Assembly: GCA_021323595.1 (NCBI GenBank)
Contig: JAJPKR010000023.1
Location: 1 to 63,428, forward strand
Direction: 5' to 3'
DNA from: Terriglobia bacterium
Lineage (GTDB): Bacteria; Acidobacteriota; Terriglobia; Terriglobales; SCQP01
Length of the DNA: 63,428 nucleotides
A program made the translations under genes and the position numbers. The notes below the pieces were generated by a model. It saw nothing but the letters and a program-made list of their open reading frames with translations, was not told the origin of the DNA and searched no databases. Of the stretch, positions 1-11,314 are shown piece after piece (position 1 is the stretch's first letter; each line of letters starts with the position of its first letter).

Positions 1-284
1 GCGTGGGGAAAATACGTCGTGCCGTCGGCGTAGCTGGCGATGTGGCGGCCGGCCCCGAAGACCTCGCCCCGCTGCCAGGCGCCGTTGGCGGCCGCCATCT
101 CCGCCACTATGTGGCCGCTCAGGTCGTAGATCTCCTCGAACTTCTGCCCGCCCACCGCGCGCTCCACGCGCCGGCCCTCGGCGTCATAGACGTAGCGGGC
201 CGTCGCGCCGCCATCCACGCCGGTCAGCCTGCCCGCGGCGTCGTATTGATAGGTGTGCGCGCCGTCGCTCGTCAGTTCGCCGGC
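1..284 (-). pseudogene. RHS/YD-repeat protein fragment (antisense piece, runs off the window start)
   Basis: Read on the minus strand, this stretch encodes typical YD repeats (motifs YQYDAAGRLT, YVYDAEGRRVER, EIYDLSGHIVAEM, then a GRHIASYADG-type end). RHS proteins are large secreted or wall-associated filaments that often carry C-terminal toxins. The minus frame stays open above about 284 but no longer resembles RHS. From there the plus strand carries a Gly/Ala-rich tail that has a homologue later in the window. I therefore place a breakpoint near 275-290, with an RHS core piece inverted against a sense-strand tail. The fragment continues left of base 1, so its true C-terminus is unseen. RHS identity is clear; the pseudogene status is inferred from the junction. 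Confidence 0.7.
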
Positions 285-551
285 GGCGCCATCGGCGGGG
301 TGGTCTCCGGCGCAGGCGTAGTCGGCGGTGTTGTCGGCGCGTCCACCGCAGGATCGGTCGTGCTGCCCGGCTCGCAGTTGGTCAGTCTCGGCGTCACCGC
401 CTCGGGTGAAGTTGCCACGCAGGCCGCTGGCGAAGCGGCGGCGCAAGCCGTCGCGCAGGCGAGCGCTGTCGCTTCGGGGGTGGTCCTCGCCAAATTGGTC
501 GGCGACCTGGCGACATTCGGGTGGGGGTTCCTGGGAGCCTGTTCGCGATGA
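285..551 (+). CDS. Gly/Ala-rich membrane-seeking tail A (5' end lost or unclear)
   Basis: The frame stays open leftwards into the antisense RHS piece and ends at TGA 549-551. It encodes a low-complexity Gly/Ala/Val run (GGVVSGAGVVGGVVGAS) and then LAKLVGDLATFGWGFLGAC. That end matches the tail at 2781-2966 (WAKFGLDFLTFGAGLFAC), which supports it as real coding sequence. No convincing start exists; GTG 300 is possible, but a fusion to a lost upstream RHS body is as likely. Its stop overlaps the ATG of the next gene (ATGA, 548-551). The composition suits a membrane-inserting peptide or toxin tip. That function is inference only. Confidence 0.5.
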   Translation, partial: GAIGGVVSGAGVVGGVVGASTAGSVVLPGSQLVSLGVTASGEVATQAAGEAAAQAVAQASAVASGVVLAKLVGDLATFGWGFLGACSR

Positions 552-1261
552 GTGAGCTGGCCCAGGACGCAGTCTTCAGCGTCGGCTTACTTGGCGCATT
601 CCTGATCGCCGCTGTGTCTTACGACAGGGCAATTATGGGGCCGGCGACCGGTCGCGGAAATTACTGGCGCCGCAGGGGACCGGTCATCTTCGGGTTCTGG
701 CTCCCCACCGCGGCGATCGCCGAGCTGGGGGTCGCCCTCGCGGCCGCAGCCCCGAGGACATGGCGCTGGCACGTAGCCGCGATTGTCACGGCTCTCTGCA
801 TTTGGGGTGGGCTCCTCTGGCTGCGCTACTCGATCATCCAGCGCCGCCGCCGGGCGCGGGGCGAGGCGCCGCCCCGGCCGCTTTGGCAGCGCGTGTCGGC
901 GGAAAGTTGGCTCACGCTCGCCTGGATCGTCGCCCTCGCCGCGAGCCTGATCGAATGGAATGTCTATGTTGACGGCGCCGGCCGGTTGGCCTTCGCTCTG
1001 CTCTGGACGGCGGCGGCCGGCGGCGCGGCGGCCTGGCCGGGCGCGCGCCGAGCTCGCGCCGCCGCGGGTCTTAAGGTCGTGCTCGTTTTGGGTGTCATCG
1101 GCCTCATCGTCCAGCCCGCCCTGGGCGCGGCGCTGGCCGTCGCCGGGCTCGGCGTCGCGTTGTTCCTGCTAACGCGCCAATCCGGCGCGGCCTACCAGGA
1201 TTTAGCCGAGATCAACGACAGCGCCCCGTCGGTCACGCACGGTGAGTCGCGAAAGCGCTGA
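548..1261 (+). CDS. Multi-pass membrane protein A, candidate immunity partner of tail A
   Basis: This 237-residue integral membrane protein has about six or seven hydrophobic segments, a basic loop in the middle (RRRRRARG) and a polar C-terminus. ATG 548 is chosen because it overlaps the TGA of the preceding tail (ATGA), as in its paralogue at 2963. The two paralogues share the block AWPGARRARAAAGL and a C-terminal Y-x-DL-x-EI element. I recognise no named family. A membrane protein coupled to a small hydrophobic tail in RHS debris suggests an immunity role, but an accessory or export role is also possible. The last bases overlap the open frame of the next RHS tip, which starts after a stop at 1243-1245. 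Confidence 0.7.
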   Translation: MSELAQDAVFSVGLLGAFLIAAVSYDRAIMGPATGRGNYWRRRGPVIFGFWLPTAAIAELGVALAAAAPRTWRWHVAAIVTALCIWGGLLWLRYSIIQRRRRARGEAPPRPLWQRVSAESWLTLAWIVALAASLIEWNVYVDGAGRLAFALLWTAAAGGAAAWPGARRARAAAGLKVVLVLGVIGLIVQPALGAALAVAGLGVALFLLTRQSGAAYQDLAEINDSAPSVTHGESRKR

Positions 1262-1994
1262 ACGGGCAGACGACGTATGATCTGTACGGGGCAAGCGACG
1301 GCGGCCACCCCATCGCTGAGAATTCAGGCGGGGCGTGGTACCGCGAGGCGATCATGGAGGGCGTGCGCCGGGGCTGGCTGTACCAAAATGGCGACGGGCG
1401 CTTCACGCTGCCCGACGCGCTGGGCTCGACGGCGGTCCTCGCCCAGGACGGCACGGTCCTCGAAATCACCTACCCCTGCGGGGAAGGGGGCGGCAACGGC
1501 GGCGGGAGCGGCGTTACCTGGGGCGGCGGCGGTGGCGGCGGGGGCTGCGGTGGAGGCGTCCCCAAGTCGATGGCGGTTTTCAGCGTTTTCGGCCCCAGCC
1601 CGTTCGCTTGCGGCGGCCCGGCCGGTGGCGGGGCCATCAGGGCGGCAGCGGCAACGGGCCTGCCAGCCCACACAAGCCGGCGCCTGGGAACGGCGGGAAG
1701 CAGCCTGGAAAACCGCAGCCACTGGGCGGACCTAACAAAAACTGGTGGTACGAGCTCCTTTGCAAGGCGTCTCCGGCGGCGCGAGTACTAGCGAGCGTCG
1801 AACAGGGAGCAGCAGTGGGCGCGCTTCGCGGTGCAACGATCGGCGCCGCCGGGGGCGAAGTTATAGAACCGTTCGGCGGGGGTGTGCCGGGCGCGATTGC
1901 GGGCGGTTTCGTACTGGGCGTGATTGGCGCCGGCAGCGGTGTCCTTTTGGGGGCAGCAGTAGCCGCGGCCTGCGCCGGCCTGGGGGCCTACTAA
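1246..1994 (+). pseudogene. Orphan RHS tip B with Gly-rich C-terminus, broken by a frameshift
   Basis: From about 1258 one frame reads like the end of an RHS core (TTYDLYGASDGG, WLYQNGDG, DALGSTAVLAQDGTVLE), followed by a poly-Gly linker. The frame that continues the protein sensibly then changes between about 1600 and 1660. The third frame carries PHKPAPGNGGKQPGKPQP, KNWWYELLCKASPAARVL and a glycine-zipper membrane tail ending AAACAGLGAY at TAA 1992-1994. The original frame instead ends at 1791 in arginine-rich sequence. No good start codon exists (first in-frame ATG 1354), so this looks like a displaced tip that lost its core. It could be a decayed cassette or an indel error in GC-rich, repetitive sequence. 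Confidence 0.6.
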
Positions 1995-1995
1995 A

Positions 1996-2166
1996 GTGCC
2001 GCCCGCGAAGCGCCAGATCGGCTCGCTTTGGCACCTGCTGCCGCGCCGCGGTCTTACCTTCGGGCAGCGCTTTGTGGGCGTCCTAGCCACTTGGGGGCTC
2101 CCTATTTTGGTTTGGCGCAGGCTTATTCCACAGCGCCCAGCGCTGGCCATTATTCCTTACGATTGA
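1996..2166 (+). CDS. Small hydrophobic protein directly behind tip B
   Basis: A 56-residue frame opens with GTG 1996, one base after the TAA of tip B, which suggests translational coupling. It has a basic N-terminus (PPAKRQIGSLWHLLPRRG), one hydrophobic segment (FVGVLATWGLPILVW) and ends IIPYD. It sits where the membrane partner sits in the two neighbouring pairs. A second plus-strand frame, open from 2087 to TAA 2249-2251, encodes another hydrophobic stretch (EVPATALGALVVAALKH). The original gene may therefore have continued through a frameshift near 2090-2150. I recognise no family. Confidence 0.4.
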   Translation: MPPAKRQIGSLWHLLPRRGLTFGQRFVGVLATWGLPILVWRRLIPQRPALAIIPYD

Positions 2167-2258
2167 GGTGCCGGCAACCGCCCTGGGCGCGCTGGTGGTC
2201 GCCGCGCTCAAACACGCAATCTTTAGCTCACGCACCACTGACGGCGACTAAAGGCAGG

Positions 2259-2288
2259 TAGCGCCCACCTGCGGTCGTGTGGGCGCTA
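2259..2288 (+). terminator. Candidate hairpin terminator after the tip B module
   Basis: A perfect 10-bp stem (TAGCGCCCAC at 2259-2268, GTGGGCGCTA at 2279-2288) encloses a 10-base loop and is followed by only three T residues. It separates the tip B module from the next three-gene module. The short T run makes efficient intrinsic termination uncertain. Confidence 0.45.
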
Positions 2289-2337
2289 TTTAGGCTGGCG
2301 GCGAGGAGATCGCCGCGGGCTTAAGGGAATATTCCGC

Positions 2338-2784
2338 TTGGCGGTCGTGATCAGGATCAAGCTCGTGAGCGGGCGGACCGGACGGGCCGTGGCCGGCGTG
2401 TGCGTGAATGTCTGGGTGGGGAACGAACGCAAATCTGCGCTGGCGATTCCGACCGACAACGACAATGTTGCGTCGCTTCGCCTTACCAATCGAGATGCCG
2501 AAGTGAGTGCCCAGATGCGATGGGAGGAGTGCGGAGACTTCGGCGCCACTGATCCCGTCGTCGCATACGCTAGCTCCATCGGGATCAACGTAGGGTACGT
2601 GTTGTGCCAGGTTCGCCGTGCCGTTCACACATGGCTAGCAACCCTGAGCTTCGATACTAAACAAGTGCTTCAGTCCGGCATTGTTAGCGCCAACACATGC
2701 GGCAAGGCGAAGGCGCTGCCGACGCCCGGTGAGGTCGTCCTCTTCGTCAGGCCGCTAAGCTGGTGGGAGAAGCTGAAGGAGTGA
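2338..2784 (+). CDS. Acidobacterial conserved protein with a carboxypeptidase-regulatory-like fold
   Basis: This 148-residue protein begins with a beta-rich stretch typical of carboxypeptidase-regulatory or transthyretin-like modules (IRIKLVSGRTGRAVAGVCVN, then a DNDNVASLRLT strand). It ends with SANTCGKAKALPTPGE and LFVRPLSWWEKLKE. From memory, this C-terminal signature recurs in short hypothetical proteins of Acidobacteria; that recollection was not checked. Start TTG 2338 lies 12 bases after AAGGGA; the frame is open further upstream but has no better start. Its TGA overlaps GTG 2781 of the next small gene (GTGA). It therefore forms a coupled three-gene module with tail C and membrane protein C. 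No catalytic motif is visible. Confidence 0.65.
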   Translation: MAVVIRIKLVSGRTGRAVAGVCVNVWVGNERKSALAIPTDNDNVASLRLTNRDAEVSAQMRWEECGDFGATDPVVAYASSIGINVGYVLCQVRRAVHTWLATLSFDTKQVLQSGIVSANTCGKAKALPTPGEVVLFVRPLSWWEKLKE

Positions 2785-2966
2785 ACGGCGTTATGGCCGC
2801 AAACGCAGGTCCTGCAAGCGCGGTTGTGCGCGGGCGTTCCGGCGCGGCCGCCGATGCCGCCTCGGGCGCCAGCACGCTGGGCGAGGCCGCCATGCCCTTC
2901 GTCGGGTGGGCGAAATTCGGGTTAGACTTCCTGACGTTTGGTGCGGGGCTGTTCGCATGCCGATGA
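2781..2966 (+). CDS. Small Ala/Gly-rich tail C, stand-alone homologue of tail A
   Basis: This gene encodes about 61 residues if it starts at GTG 2781, which overlaps the upstream TGA; ATG 2793, after AAGGAG, is the alternative. The N-terminal half is Ala/Gly/Ser-rich. The C-terminal part (FVGWAKFGLDFLTFGAGLF, then AC and R) matches the end of tail A near 480-548 in residues and spacing. Here it is a free small gene, not attached to an RHS core. Its TGA overlaps the ATG of membrane protein C (ATGA, 2963-2966). A small hydrophobic peptide coupled to a membrane protein resembles bacteriocin/immunity or toxin/immunity pairs by arrangement only. Confidence 0.55.
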   Translation: MNGVMAANAGPASAVVRGRSGAAADAASGASTLGEAAMPFVGWAKFGLDFLTFGAGLFACR

Positions 2967-3640
2967 CCAGCGACCTGCCGCTCGCCTGGCGGCTTCTCTT
3001 TCCGCCGTGCGGCGTCGCCGCAGTGGCGGTGCTTTTCTATCTGGGGTACGTCGGTCCTCGTGGGATGAGCAACCCGCTGCGGCGCGGCCTCTTAATCCAC
3101 GGCTCGATCTTCCTGTTGGGAGCCGGCTACGCGGAGGTGTTCGAAGACAAGCTCTGGCAGCTCACGGGGTTTGAGTGGACCTGGGCGCTTTTGACGGCCG
3201 TCTGGGGCTGGCTGGTGCTGCGCGACGCGCTGCGGCGCTATCGCCGGCCGCAGCCGGCGGAGGGCACGGTCGCCCCGCCCACTGCACCGGCGCGACCACG
3301 CGCGGCGGGCGCGGAGCGCTGGCTGGCCGCCGCCTGGATGATCGTCCTCGCCGGCGCGATGATCGCCTGGGCCGCGTACTTCGACCGCAAGACGACGCTG
3401 CTCTGGCCGCTTGCCTGGAGCGGCCTGGCGGCGGCCTCGTTGGCTTGGCCAGGGGCGCGCCGCGCACGGGCCGCCGCCGGGCTGCGCGGCCTGCTGCCTT
3501 TGGCGATTATCGGCGCCATCGGCGTCCACACCTGGCCGGTTTTCGTGTTGGTCGCGGGCCTGGCGCTGGCGCTGTGGCTGCTCGCGCGCGACCGTTCCGC
3601 CCCTCGCTACCGGGACCTGAGCGAAATCACCCGAGGCTGA
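2963..3640 (+). CDS. Multi-pass membrane protein C, paralogue of membrane protein A
   Basis: This 225-residue integral membrane protein has about six hydrophobic segments. ATG 2963 forms ATGA with the stop of tail C; ATG 2957 is an in-frame alternative. It shares with the protein at 548-1261 the layout of N-terminal helices, a basic Pro-rich cytoplasmic loop (RRYRRPQPAEG), two helices, the AWPGARRARAAAGL block, another helix pair and a C-terminal YRDLSEI. Homology covers roughly the last 110 residues well and the first half weakly, which is what a diversifying partner protein might show. I recognise no family. Immunity to the coupled tail is the favoured guess. Confidence 0.7.
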   Translation: MTSDLPLAWRLLFPPCGVAAVAVLFYLGYVGPRGMSNPLRRGLLIHGSIFLLGAGYAEVFEDKLWQLTGFEWTWALLTAVWGWLVLRDALRRYRRPQPAEGTVAPPTAPARPRAAGAERWLAAAWMIVLAGAMIAWAAYFDRKTTLLWPLAWSGLAAASLAWPGARRARAAAGLRGLLPLAIIGAIGVHTWPVFVLVAGLALALWLLARDRSAPRYRDLSEITRG

Positions 3641-3758
3641 CGTGCTGACACGTGCCGCGCCGGCGAGCAGCAATTCCCTCGACTGTCCTGCGTCCCGGGG
3701 CTTTGAAGTGTTTCGGGAGCGCTGCGTTCGCGCAATCTAACATGATCCGGGGGGCATT

Positions 3759-4182
3759 TTGAACGCGCCGCGACGTCGCACGATGGAGTCCGTGATCCAC
3801 GACCATCGTGTCGGGAGCGTGCTTGTCGGCGCGCTGCTGCTCGCCGTCGCCATCGACGGGCTGATAGGGCCCATAGCGAAGCGCCCCCCGAGCCTCGCCA
3901 CGACGGTGATCACCGGGATCTTTTTCGCGATCTTCGTTTGGAGCGGCTCGGTCGCGAGAGGCGCTGAAAGGATCGTCTTTCTGCTCGCGGCAGTGGCCAT
4001 GGCTGTGCCCCTCGTCACCGGTCGGTATCGCGCGACCGTCGGCTGCAGCCGTCTACACCGTCGGTTCCGTCGTCGGTTCAGCCTCACTCGCGGCCATTGC
4101 TGGCGTCATCGGCGAACAAGTGATCGCCGCGTCCCGGCGGCGTTCCGAGAAAGGGGCAGGTAGCGTCCAAGCGGACACGTGA
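3759..4182 (+). pseudogene. Frameshifted small membrane protein
   Basis: From TTG 3759 (or ATG 3783) the frame encodes three hydrophobic segments (SVLVGALLLAVAIDGLIG, TTVITGIFFAIFVW, RIVFLLAAVAMAVPLV). After about 4020 it turns into arginine-rich sequence ending at 4163. The neighbouring frame from about 4024 instead reads as a further membrane segment (AAAVYTVGSVVGSAS, then LAAIAGVIGEQVIAASRR), ending at TGA 4180-4182. One base removed near CCGGTCGGTATC joins the two into one coherent protein of about 140 residues. Family unknown. It sits at the end of the island, so it may be another orphan partner protein. Confidence 0.5.
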
Positions 4183-4367: not shown

Positions 4368-6605
<2,238 letters not shown>

Positions 6606-6847
6606 CTTCAACGTTTTCCTTATCGGTCGAGATCGTCTTGCTCAAGGGGCGGACGGCCGCGGCTCCCGGCCGCCTGGCCGGGGCGGAATCCGCACCGAAG
6701 CGGGCGCGGCGAGCGCCGAACTCGGAACTCTTCCAAGATGTCGCGATGGGGCAGCCGCGGCCCAGCGGTACCGGTGAGTTTGGGGCCGCAGGCGATGGTT
6801 TCGGAACTGCCCGTCACGTTCGGGCGACTCGGACTGCATGCTGGATG

Positions 6848-6871
6848 GGACGCAGGCAGCGCCGTGCGTCC
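6848..6871 (-). other. Hairpin immediately after rpsO
   Basis: A perfect 7-bp inverted repeat (GGACGCA / TGCGTCC) with a 10-base loop lies two bases beyond the rpsO stop on the minus strand. No T-run follows, so it is more likely an RNA-processing or stabilising hairpin in the rpsO-pnp transcript than a terminator. In other bacteria this intergenic region is an RNase III target; that parallel is inference. Confidence 0.4.
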
Positions 6872-6873
6872 GC

Positions 6874-7143
6874 TTACTTGCGCAAACCTAAGTTCTGGAT
6901 CAGCCCGCGGTAGCGCTCCGGATTGCGCCCCTTGAGGTAATCCAATAAACGCCGCCGCTTGCCCACCATCAACAGCAGGCCGCGGCGGGAGTGATGATCC
7001 TTGGGATGGGTCTTGAAATGCTCGGTCAGCTCGCCAATCCGTTGGCTGAGCAACGCCACCTGCACTTCCGGCGAACCACAGTCGCCGGGATGAGTCGCGA
7101 AGGACCGAACGAGATCTTGTTTTCGTTCCTTACTTAACGCCAT
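6874..7143 (-). CDS. rpsO: 30S ribosomal protein S15
   Basis: The 89-residue protein matches S15 over its whole usual length, including [32 protein letters not shown] and the C-terminal [14 protein letters not shown]15 binds the central domain of 16S rRNA early in small-subunit assembly. It lies directly upstream of pnp with about 270 bases between them. In other bacteria S15 represses its own mRNA. Confidence 0.98.
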
Positions 7144-7175
7144 GTCAGGGTCGCATCAAGAATAGCACACCGCCG

Positions 7176-8066
7176 CTAGGGTTTTGGCCCGGCGGGGGCC
7201 GCGGCGGGCGGACCGAAATAGGCGGGATCGAGCTGGGGCGGGGCGGCAGCGGCGAGGCTCTGCACTTTTTGGCGCACCGCCGCGGCCAGCAACTGATCGG
7301 ATATTTGCGTTCGCACCTGATCGAGGGGCAAAGTGCGCCGCTCTTCGACCTCGACAATGTGATAACCGAAGGGGGTCTCGAAGGGCGCGCTCACGACGCC
7401 GGGCTTGAGGGTCCAGACGACGCGATCGAACTGCGGCACCGTCTGGCCATGCGAGAGGAAGCCCAGTTCCCCGCCCTTGGCCTTGGAGCCGGGGTCATCG
7501 GATTCGGCCCTGGCGACGGCCGCGAAACTCTCGCCCCGCTTCAGGCGCGCGGCGATGGCCTGGATCTTGGCCAGCGCCGCCGCTTTGGTGCGATGGCTGT
7601 GGGCGCCCGGCGTGGCGCTATCGGCGACCAGGATGTGGCGCACGCGAGCTTGCTCGAAGTCTTCCCGGTGCGCTTGGTAGTAGGCCTGAACTGCGGCAGG
7701 ACTGGGCGCGGCGGATTCGCGCAAATGGGCGATCAGCGCCGCGGCCAAGGCGCGCTCCCGCGCCATCCGCATTTCCGACTGGAACGCGGGATCCTGATCG
7801 AGGTGGAGGCGCAGGGCTTCCTGATCCATCGCCAGGATCTGCGCGTATTCGCCGGCGACCTCGCGCTTATGAGCGGCGGCATCGGCCTGTTCTTGCGCGG
7901 GCAGGCCGGCGATCAAGGCGTCGAATTCGCGCGCGGTGACCGCCGCGTTGCCGACGCGCAGAACCACCGTGTCGGGCGGGACCGGTTTGCCGGCGGGCGC
8001 GGTTTGCGCTCCCAAGACGCCGGCACAGGCCAGCGCCAGAAAAATGCCCTCTCTCCATTGCGGCAT
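7176..8066 (-). CDS. Exported parvulin-type peptidyl-prolyl isomerase (SurA/PpiC-like)
   Basis: The 296-residue protein has an N-terminal hydrophobic signal (IFLALACAGVLGAQ), a helical SurA-like chaperone segment (about residues 30-130) and a parvulin domain at about 140-240. Diagnostic parvulin motifs are ARVRHILVA, GGELGFLSHGQTVPQF and APFETPFGYHIVEV. It should assist folding of periplasmic or outer-membrane proteins. A Pro/Ala-rich end follows. It lies just upstream of rpsO on the same strand but is probably separately expressed. Confidence 0.9.
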   Translation of the reverse strand: MPQWREGIFLALACAGVLGAQTAPAGKPVPPDTVVLRVGNAAVTAREFDALIAGLPAQEQADAAAHKREVAGEYAQILAMDQEALRLHLDQDPAFQSEMRMARERALAAALIAHLRESAAPSPAAVQAYYQAHREDFEQARVRHILVADSATPGAHSHRTKAAALAKIQAIAARLKRGESFAAVARAESDDPGSKAKGGELGFLSHGQTVPQFDRVVWTLKPGVVSAPFETPFGYHIVEVEERRTLPLDQVRTQISDQLLAAAVRQKVQSLAAAAPPQLDPAYFGPPAAAPAGPKP

Positions 8067-8116
8067 GCTGGCCTACGTTCCGGGCCGGCGGGAAGCCGGC
8101 CCTGATGTGATTTTCT

Positions 8117-11047
8117 TCAGTTTACCGTAAGCGTCACTTGCACGTTGTGGCTGGTGCTGCCGGCCGTCGCGGTCAGCGTCAAGCTGTAGTTGCCCGGCGG
8201 CGTCCTCTGGCTGCTGCTGCTGCTACTGCCGCAGCCCAGCCAAGCCAGCGACATCAAGGCCAGCCCCAGGGCGGCGGTGACCGCCCAACGGCGGCGCCGC
8301 GACTGCGCCAGACCGCGCCGGAGCATCCAACCCAGCGCCAACAGGCTCAGGCCCAAAAGCGCATACCACCACGGCGACTGCGGCGCGTCCCAGGGGCCGG
8401 GCGCGAGGAACCCGGCGCTTGTCGTCACCGTGTAAGTGGCGTTCGAGGCCGAAGTGCCGTTCATGGTCACCGACGTGGGCGAGGGGGTGCAGGTCGCGCC
8501 GGTGGGCGCGCCGGTGCAGGTGAGCGTGACCACCTGCGTGTAGCCGTTGGCGGGCGTCACCGTCAATTGATAGCTCGTGGTCGAGCCCGCGGTGATCTGC
8601 GCCTGCGTCGGCGTCACGCTCAGGCTGAAATCGCCGCCGGTACCGTTCAGCGCCATGGATTGCGAGCCGCCGGGGGCGTTGTCGGTAACCACCAGCGTGC
8701 CGGTGGCGGCGCCGGTCGCCGTCGGCGAGAAGGTGACACTGATGTTGCAACTGGCGTTGGGGATCAACGTCGCCGGACAGTTGTTGGTCTCGGCGAACGG
8801 CCCGGTCGTGGCGATACTGGAAATCGTCAGGTTCAATTCGCCCGAGTTGGTGAACTGAACGACTTCCGCCGAGCTCGTGGTGCTGACCGATTGCGCCGCG
8901 AACGACAACGGGTTGGGCGCAAAAGTCCCCACCGCCGCGCTGATGAATTTCGCCAGGAAGGCGTCTTGCGAACTCGCCGGCGCGGTTTGCAGCGCGCCCT
9001 TGGTGACCGGGAAGTCCTGCGACCCGGTGTTGCCGGCGACAAAAATGTCGCCGCCGGAATCAATGGCGACGGCATTGGCCTGATCGAGCTGCGAACCGCC
9101 CAAGAACGTCGAGAAATCGAGCTGCGTCCCGATTAGGTTCAGCTTGAACAAGAAGGCGTCGTCATTGCCGGCCAGAGTCGTGCTCACCGCCGAGGCGGTG
9201 GTCGGGAAATCTGACGAGGCCGTGTACCCGGCGACGTAAGCGGCGCCGCTCGCGTCGAGGGCGATGCCGGTGCCCACGTCCGATGCCGTGCCGCCGACAT
9301 AGGTGGAGTAAACCAGCGCCGAGCCACTGCGATTGAGCTCGGCGACGAACACGTCGCTGGGTCCGATCGGCGCGGTGCGGTAGGCGCCCGGCGAGGTGGG
9401 GAAATTGGTGGAATCGGTGAAGCCGGTGATGAACGCGTCGCCGGCGACATCCACGGCGATGGCATTGGCCTCGTCATCGCCGGCGCCGCCGAGGTAGGTC
9501 GCGTACTGGATCGCGCCGCCGCTCGTGTACTTCACGACAAACGCATCGAATTTGCCGCCGAATGTCGTTTGTTCCGCCGCGGCGGTCACTGGGAAATTAG
9601 TGGACGAGGTGAATCCGGTCACATAGACGTTCCCCGAGCCGTCGAGCCCGATGCCGGTGGCTTTGTCGCTGCCGCTGCCGCCCAAAAGCGTCGAATAGGC
9701 CAAATCCGCGGCGCCGGCGCCGGCGGGAACGATCTTGGCGACGAAGGCATCCTGCCCGCCGCCGGAGGTCGCTTGCTGCGCGCCGGTGGTCACCGGGAAG
9801 GCGCTGGAGATGGTGTCGCCCGCGACCCAAGGATGTCCCGCGGAATCGAGCGCGATGGCGTTGATCTCATCGTCGCTGGTCCCGCCCAGATAGGTCGAGT
9901 ACTTGAGGCTGGCGCCGCCGGGCGCCAACTCGGCCAAGAAGCCGTCCTTGCCGCCCGCCTCCACCGTCTGAAAGGCGCCCGTCGTCACCGGGAAGTTGCT
10001 GGAATTGGTGAAGCCCGCGACGAAAACATCGCCGGAACCATCGACGGCGACGGCGTTGGCTTCATCGTCGCTCGAGCCGCCGAGATAGGTCGAAAAGATC
10101 AGCTTGGCGCCGGTGGGATCGATTTCGGAGACGAAAACATCGAAACCGCCCGCTGCCGCACCTTGCACGACGCCGGTGGTGACCGGGAAATCCGTCGAGA
10201 GCGTGAAACCCGCCAGGTAGGCATCCCCGCTCGAATCGGCGGCGACCGCGTTGGCCTGGTCCACGCCCGAACCGCCGAGGAAGGTCGCAAAGGACAATAC
10301 CGGGTCGATCACCAGCGCGCGGCTATGATCATAGGCGCCGAGCGCGAAGCCGATGGTATTGCCCGCGCGGCGGTAGCGAGCAGCGACGAAATGCCGCCGG
10401 CCGTTGACGATCTGATAGGCCACCGGCTTCAAGAGCGCAAACCGCAGCGCTCCGATCCGGAGCTGCAGGTCGCCCGATGGCGAGAGCGTGGTCTCGGTGG
10501 CCCCGGAGAGCGCTAGACGAATCGCCTCCGGCCGCGCGCCCGGAGCCACGTCGAAGTCGTATTCGAGTTGGCTGGCACGACCGTAGTAAACGAGATCGAT
10601 GCCCGGATAGATCCCCGGATAGAGGACACGCCGATATTCCGGCACGTCGCGGCGCCAGGCGCGGGGATTGGCGCCCAGCAGATAGTTGGCATGAGCTGAC
10701 GCGCGCGCCACGCCCCGCGGCACGACCGCGTTTGCCCCCAACAGCCGCAAATCGAGTACTCCGGCTTCGCCGTCACGCCGCGCGGCACGCAGGCGCGCAC
10801 GGTCAGAAGTGAGGAACAGCACATAGCCGGAATTGCGGGTCAAAAACAGGGCCCGGGAGTCGGTCTGCCCGTGGTTCGCCTCGAACAGCAAGGGCACGCT
10901 GATCGGCCGAACCCGCGGCTTCGGCGCGCGAAGCGCCGGCATCGGAGCAGCGGCAGCGGCGGCGCAAACGAAGGCCGAGATCAAGGCGAAGATGCCGAGC
11001 ACACGAAGCGAGCGCAAAGACGAACGATTGGGGGAGTATCCAAACAT
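8117..11047 (-). CDS. Secreted SBBP-repeat protein with choice-of-anchor-D and Ig-like domains
   Basis: About 976 residues. ATG 11047 is chosen because a signal peptide follows at once (LGIFALISAFVCAAAAAAP). Next comes a conserved N-terminal domain of SBBP proteins (FEANHGQTD, FLTRNSGYVLFLT), then seven SBBP repeats of about 60 residues (YLGGSSDDEANAVAVD, GDVFVAGFT, NFPVT). An ASPM/SPD-2/Hydin-type anchor-D domain (PNPLSFAAQSVSTTSSAEVV) and an Ig-like domain (DFSLSVTPTQAQI) follow. Near the C-terminus are a membrane helix (WWYALLGLSLLALGW) and a second hydrophobic segment ending LGCGSSSSSS. It is probably a cell-surface beta-propeller protein of unknown ligand. This architecture is common in Acidobacteriota. 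Confidence 0.9.
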   Translation of the reverse strand: MFGYSPNRSSLRSLRVLGIFALISAFVCAAAAAAPMPALRAPKPRVRPISVPLLFEANHGQTDSRALFLTRNSGYVLFLTSDRARLRAARRDGEAGVLDLRLLGANAVVPRGVARASAHANYLLGANPRAWRRDVPEYRRVLYPGIYPGIDLVYYGRASQLEYDFDVAPGARPEAIRLALSGATETTLSPSGDLQLRIGALRFALLKPVAYQIVNGRRHFVAARYRRAGNTIGFALGAYDHSRALVIDPVLSFATFLGGSGVDQANAVAADSSGDAYLAGFTLSTDFPVTTGVVQGAAAGGFDVFVSEIDPTGAKLIFSTYLGGSSDDEANAVAVDGSGDVFVAGFTNSSNFPVTTGAFQTVEAGGKDGFLAELAPGGASLKYSTYLGGTSDDEINAIALDSAGHPWVAGDTISSAFPVTTGAQQATSGGGQDAFVAKIVPAGAGAADLAYSTLLGGSGSDKATGIGLDGSGNVYVTGFTSSTNFPVTAAAEQTTFGGKFDAFVVKYTSGGAIQYATYLGGAGDDEANAIAVDVAGDAFITGFTDSTNFPTSPGAYRTAPIGPSDVFVAELNRSGSALVYSTYVGGTASDVGTGIALDASGAAYVAGYTASSDFPTTASAVSTTLAGNDDAFLFKLNLIGTQLDFSTFLGGSQLDQANAVAIDSGGDIFVAGNTGSQDFPVTKGALQTAPASSQDAFLAKFISAAVGTFAPNPLSFAAQSVSTTSSAEVVQFTNSGELNLTISSIATTGPFAETNNCPATLIPNASCNISVTFSPTATGAATGTLVVTDNAPGGSQSMALNGTGGDFSLSVTPTQAQITAGSTTSYQLTVTPANGYTQVVTLTCTGAPTGATCTPSPTSVTMNGTSASNATYTVTTSAGFLAPGPWDAPQSPWWYALLGLSLLALGWMLRRGLAQSRRRRWAVTAALGLALMSLAWLGCGSSSSSSQRTPPGNYSLTLTATAGSTSHNVQVTLTVN
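8945..10300 (-). repeat. Seven tandem SBBP-repeat units within the secreted protein
   Basis: Seven units of about 180 bases each encode the pattern (F/Y)-(S/A)-T-(Y/F/L)-(L/V)-GG, a D/N-rich turn, A(I/V)A(V/L)D, (V/I)(A/T)G-x-T and DFP/NFP. The units differ at synonymous and variable positions, so they are old coding repeats rather than recent DNA duplication. Confidence 0.85.
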
Positions 11048-11314
11048 GGTGGTTGGGTAGGATCGGGCACGGCTATGCCGGGCGCACGATGTACTAGAGT
11101 AGAACGAACTCTGGAAAAAATCATGCAAGGAATTTAGGCTGGTGCGTTCTTCCATCGCATGCGCTCGATCGCCGCAATGGAGGCTTCGCCCCGTGGACGG
11201 GGGCCCGGGCCGCGATTGCAGGTACTGCGGCGGACCGAAACGGGTGGGCAAAATGTTGCGCAACCAACGGATGGGGCGAGAATCCGATATGCTCAGGGGC
11301 AGCGCGCCTCCCGC
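11048..11314. other. Divergent promoter region between the SBBP gene and the sigma factor
   Basis: About 270 bases separate two divergent genes. The sigma-factor frame stays open leftwards to 11159, but that part is unlike a sigma factor and is probably non-coding. I see no clear -10/-35 pair or strong palindrome here. Confidence 0.4.

Follow-up and report, generated by a model that had tools for sequence, protein, structure and literature searches.

Layout of the locus

The window, by which we mean the whole stretch of DNA analyzed (63 428 nt), makes up the whole of contig C39, one of 65 in a 3.55-Mb genome of 97.6% completeness. It starts inside an Rhs repeat on the minus strand that runs off the contig end, and then carries on the plus strand the remains of three cassettes (A, B, and C), each pairing a hydrophobic tail or tip with a membrane protein, amid Rhs debris:

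3..283, minus strand: Rhs core fragment with YD repeats (Pfam RHS_repeat, 8.8e-8 on the minus-strand ORF 3-446; upper limit, ~283, set by eye)
285..551, plus strand: tail A, 5'-truncated tip-domain stub (hmmsearch E 6e-4, rank 2 of 1099 window ORFs)
548..1261, plus strand: partner A, multi-pass membrane protein and probable immunity protein (paralogous to partner C and the C57 partner; 6 hydrophobic segments)
1262..1465, plus strand: truncated Rhs core fragment ending LAQDGTV (1426-1459 identical to the C57 Rhs core over all 34 nt; motif shared with the C16 Rhs core)
1728..1994, plus strand: tip B, Gly-zipper-rich, of a second tip family (41% identity to the G281 tip; GxxxG excess, p=0.002)
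1996..2251, plus strand: partner B, a membrane protein with two helices whose frame shifts by 1 nt near 2145 (G091 partner match, E 1.4e-5, across the shift)
2781..2966, plus strand: tail C, 5'-truncated tip-domain stub (hmmsearch E 4e-14; 81% DNA identity to C57 over 2839-3006)
2957..3640 (start 2957 or 2963), plus strand: partner C, multi-pass membrane protein and probable immunity protein (73% identical to the C57 partner)

Every other listed feature runs antisense to the Rhs core at 3-~283. Tail A is read from the opposite strand and so is not fused to that core, and its reading as the tip of that Rhs was ruled out. The two meet head to head near 283, close to the contig end, by inversion or misassembly. 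Between cassettes B and C lies a 148-aa ORF (2338-2784, ending PLSWWEKLKE) whose stop codon overlaps the tail C frame and which had no match in family searches including Pfam. Another small membrane-protein-like frame 3' of cassette C (3759-4163), apparently frameshifted near its end and with a Pfam match at chance level only, is possibly a relic immunity gene. The minus-strand genes at 4368-11263, recognized by eye as polynucleotide phosphorylase, ribosomal protein S15, a PpiC-like peptidyl-prolyl isomerase, and a large repeat protein, are ordinary neighbors.

Both tail/membrane-protein pairs that the preliminary description placed here are present. Tail A ends in AKLVGDLATFGWGFLGACSR at 551, its TGA overlapped by the ATG of partner A at 548, and tail C ends in AKFGLDFLTFGAGLFACR at 2966. 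The ATGA stop/start overlap, described as identical in the two pairs, stands for A; for C the conserved start is probably ATG 2957, not 2963, with a 10-nt overlap as on C57. The proposed kinship of the two tails held up as well: pairwise BLAST gave no match between them, their divergence being too great, and a profile built from 10 homologues that included neither tail ranked C first and A second among the 1099 window ORFs. Tails A and C are the 5'-truncated ends of one domain of ~160 residues. A reading of the window copies as working effectors is not supported: tails A and C are truncated stubs, the former lacking a convincing start codon, and because the toxin parts of the window are cut to 61-89 residues they cannot supply a complete tip.

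Tip B, a member of a second tip family that has a two-helix partner of its own, was described as a Gly-zipper tail followed by a small membrane protein. The zipper is real, tip B alone among the tips tested having a GxxxG excess over shuffled sequences. The rest needs correction: the Rhs core fragment at 1262-1465 is in a different reading frame from tip B, and partner B is frameshifted. A G281 homologue of tip B carries an overlapping two-helix partner, a related partner also occurs in G091, and window partner B matches both once read across the one frameshift.

Intact cassettes across the order

An intact counterpart of cassette C lies on contig C57 of the same genome, where an Rhs core (TIGR03696, 2.5e-14) ending in WNRYAYVGNQPLEFRDPLGF leads into a tip of ~230 aa with the same end as tail C, overlapping the gene for a third paralogue of partners A and C. 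The DNA of the window and that of C57 are 81% identical over 2839-3006 and 95% identical over 3197-3673, a stretch that continues beyond the stop codon. Given this match and the intact C57 tip, tail C is the leftover 3' end of a C57-kind cassette.

With the C57 tip as query, full-length relatives were retrieved from other genera of the order. Fusion to an Rhs core is seen in eight copies (C57, G576, G458, G404, G527, G446, G159, and G594), and five are orphan cassettes (G458, G446, G091, G679, and G603); named carriers are Acidipila rosea DSM 103428, with its tip at L085 4397-4840, and the MAG YP3.bin104. The preliminary description named as a refutation that tails never sit at Rhs C-termini; this check did not refute it, intact Rhs-fused copies occurring in the same genome and seven others. 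In all eight fusions the variable tip is directly C-terminal to the conserved Rhs core, a connection lost in the window. Distribution is sparse, with tip matches at E <= 0.001 in 18 of the 397 genomes of the order, some of these matches being false; short-chain dehydrogenase matches in G337 and G654 and weak matches in G405, G284, and G346 were left out of the membership. A family search around G159 returned the known carriers and nothing further, and no relatives were found in plasmid and viral collections. At one locus, L110 (G159:C1:2426000-2438500), the intact Rhs is followed by at least two more orphan tip/membrane frames.

An intact cassette consists of an Rhs core ending PLxxxDPxG(L/F), a Gly/Asn-rich linker, often with APNN, and a tip of ~160 residues that ends in AKFxxDxLTFxxGxxxC and whose stop codon overlaps or nearly abuts the partner start. 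The tip domain is Gly/Ala-rich and charge-poor; a Cys close to either end is conserved, as are columns of S, N, K, and D, and its consensus is roughly CAAxF...S[IL]A...GN[ST]xSG..N...G[LI]P...NAxTG...TLxGxTA...AKFxxDxLTFxxGxxxC.

Coupling to the downstream gene was assessed for the 13 complete tips, less G576, which lies at a contig end. All 12 checkable tips are followed by a small membrane protein, in the position and with the coupling of an immunity gene directly downstream. In 11 of the 12, and likewise at stub C, a membrane ORF starts at -25 to +12 nt; after the twelfth (G603) it comes ~175 nt on, followed by a second tail stub and a second membrane frame in a window-like layout. In the same DNA, 21% of ORF ends have a membrane ORF in that position, the counts for the tips not being independent because family members are related. 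A stub in G402 also retains its partner.

Mosaic partner genes

The membrane proteins at 548-1261 and 2963-3640 are paralogues, as had been proposed (BLASTP, 42% identity over 158 aa, E 8e-9), with AWPGARRARAAAGL common to both; queried against its own genome, partner A retrieves partner C and the third paralogue on C57. Comparison of partner C with the C57 partner reveals a sharp mosaic, the N-terminal ~80 aa being 40% identical and the remainder ~90% (95% in DNA). These N-terminal ~80 residues are homologous to most of the ~100-aa G458 partners (hhalign 96%), whereas the 68-82-aa partners of other tips have only a short PP...R.W pattern in common with the N-terminal block (hhalign 13% and 46%), so that shared ancestry can be claimed for some partners only. 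The divergent N-terminal block, which makes up nearly the whole protein in another genus, probably sets specificity, and the homogenized C-terminal ~150 residues would be an add-on.

Across the family, partners range from 62 to 237 aa, and all have hydrophobic segments by Kyte-Doolittle analysis. No relatives came from a related-locus search with the membrane-protein alignment. A class search with the membrane-protein profile convincingly found only the three copies of its own genome, all other matches being partial (E 7e-5 to 1e-3); the tip is therefore the more useful query.

Database searches, composition, and structure models

The preliminary description knew of no named family for these proteins, and our searches agree: neither tip nor partner matched a family in Pfam, NCBIfam, PHROGs (searched with the window and C57 proteins), or PDB. 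Profile matches above cut-off were to the Rhs core, together with one functionless PHROG on that core, and all others were sub-threshold. The scaffold is Rhs, not CdiA. In tips of the A/C family, charged residues make up 4-10% and hydrophobicity exceeds that of the genome's other tips, with no canonical transmembrane (TM) helix (maximal 19-residue Kyte-Doolittle averages mostly 1.1-1.5). A Gly zipper does not extend to this family, as tails A and C have no GxxxG excess over shuffles. AlphaFold models of a relative's tip (all-helical, pLDDT 36) and of partner C (pLDDT 49) were too poor to use.

Export and genomic setting

About a dozen Rhs tips sit on Rhs cores in this genome. By eye, the genes after its other Rhs tips are mostly signal-peptide, lipoprotein, or membrane-like, which suggests action in the envelope. 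Sec-type signal sequences, likewise recognized by eye, begin the genome's own Rhs proteins on C14 and C7. The intact Rhs of G159, 1616 aa long, starts in the same way, and RHS repeats and this signal-like N-terminus were the only features recognized in it. No match to the T6SS sheath protein VipB (PF05943) or to PAAR (PF05488) was found in the genome, and a T6SS effector of the Tse5 type is therefore not what we see here.

Two other loci of this genome deserve mention. At locus L028 (G000:C23:1-5500), three Rhs tips with differing C-termini succeed one another, and a multi-pass membrane ORF comes after each. One of these ORFs encodes 239 aa with 8 hydrophobic segments and starts at -1 nt; these are other tip and partner families. 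At L025 (G000:C7:16000-20000), an Rhs tip with a weak, sub-threshold CHAP-like match precedes a gene with a signal-like N-terminus, and that tip may possibly be a cell-wall-directed toxin.

Proposed function and alternatives

In our judgment the window probably holds decayed C-terminal cassettes, orphaned from Sec-exported Rhs polymorphic toxins, with membrane-acting tips and integral-membrane immunity proteins as partners. The comparisons support a real but unnamed family of putative Rhs toxin tips and membrane immunity proteins, of a general kind already known. The sequences show the tip domain family, its fusion to Rhs cores, its close coupling to membrane proteins, the mosaic partner gene, and the Sec-type signals on Rhs proteins; toxicity, neutralization, the membrane as target, and delivery to neighbors we infer as follows. 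The Rhs shell would leave the cell by Sec, and the tip would be released into or onto a neighboring cell, there inserting into or disrupting the inner membrane from the periplasmic side; insertion is likely because the tips are Gly/Ala-rich, low in charge, and hydrophobic, though without a canonical TM helix. In the producer, the co-translated membrane protein would sit in the inner membrane and block its own tip. Cassettes A and C, with the toxin trimmed to a stub and the immunity gene still open, look as would be expected of displaced cassettes kept for protection.

It is doubtful, if still worth weighing, that the tips are soluble periplasmic polymorphic toxins (an enzyme or ligand acting on an envelope component), with the membrane protein serving as immunity by guarding or mimicking the target. 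The Cys conserved near both ends, the conserved S, N, K, and D columns, and the want of a clear TM helix would suit such a toxin, as would the soluble-looking exported partners of the genome's other tips, one of which is weakly CHAP-like; the charge is nevertheless very low and Gly/Ala content high, and we recognized no catalytic motif and found no Pfam or PDB relatives. That the membrane protein is instead an accessory for export, anchoring, or processing of the Rhs tip, with the tip acting as the Rhs shell's membrane anchor or plug, strikes us as improbable. Tip and partner are both hydrophobic and tightly coupled, and toxicity is putative here, but the partners of close tips differ strongly, no two tip families share a partner, and next to truncated stubs the partners are still kept (in the window, G603, and G402), which suits immunity better than an accessory role. 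Chance hydrophobic frames in GC-rich Rhs debris, or a contig-end assembly artefact, are scarcely credible: the window does begin at a contig end, within an Rhs repeat and close to the head-to-head junction, and GC bias does open antisense frames, but several other genera, and the named isolate A. rosea, have homologous pairs arranged alike, and tail and partner C recur on C57, which refutes this for the pairs, the minus-strand Rhs/tail A junction alone being one that could be an artefact.

Returning to membrane-acting tips with membrane immunity, we put forward tentatively, aware that it may prove too bold, that they form a new class of Rhs membrane-disrupting domain, carried in Acidobacteriota by T6SS-free, Sec-exported shells, with a two-part immunity protein retained as a protective archive after toxin loss. 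As part of the same tentative proposal, that protein would combine a variable N-terminal specificity domain with a homogenized C-terminal membrane domain. The tip profile and the partner provide a defined, searchable domain for contact weapons in Acidobacteriota, which are abundant soil bacteria; Rhs antagonism seems little studied in them, our literature searches having returned general papers only. The mosaic partner genes offer a direct route to locating immunity specificity, and the Sec signals raise the question of how Rhs toxins cross the outer membrane without a T6SS.

Relation to known systems

WapA-type proteins have a Sec signal peptide, YD/Rhs repeats, a polymorphic toxic C-terminus, and an adjacent immunity gene, the known systems being Gram-positive. 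An example, S. suis WapA, is listed in PMC12704120. The Rhs proteins described here share the Sec-type signal, the YD/Rhs repeats, the polymorphic tip, and the adjoining candidate immunity gene, whereas their Acidobacteriota host has an outer membrane.

In their presumed working, the window's cassettes are most like Tse5/Tsi5 (PMC9637101) and the contact-dependent inhibition (CDI) ionophores with two-helix CdiI (PMC11630599). Tse5 of Pseudomonas aeruginosa has an Rhs shell and a membrane-depolarizing tip without a recognizable enzyme family, and its immunity protein Tsi5 is integral to the membrane, with two TM regions predicted (PMC9637101, PMC10684867). The likeness to this RhsP1-type pore-forming pair lies in the Rhs shell, the unrecognized C-terminal tip, and the membrane-integral partner, depolarization being a property of Tse5. 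The systems differ in that Tse5 is a T6SS-delivered protein with a PAAR-like N-terminus, whereas the Rhs proteins here start with Sec-type signals; Tse5 was not among the returns of a profile search of PDB sequences.

The window's layout resembles that of orphan rhs-CT/rhsI modules, displaced rhs 3' ends with linked immunity genes that lie downstream of the main rhs gene and have no translation starts (PMC3967940); it differs in that the toxin parts are only 61-89-residue stubs. In the EC93-type CDI ionophore systems, CdiI proteins of 72-100 aa form very hydrophobic two-helix hairpins, and the toxin boundary is marked by a conserved VENN (PMC11630599). CDI ionophore pairs are defined by a CdiA scaffold with a five-helix ionophore domain. 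CdiA-CT/CdiI pairs are likewise polymorphic, with small hydrophobic partners, but they belong to CdiA/CdiB two-partner secretion rather than to Rhs, have no sequence match to the proteins described here, and contrast with partners that here span 62 to 237 aa. APNN or AANN stands ahead of many of the tips and is possibly an exchange boundary, the recurrent APNN being comparable to VENN in CdiA.
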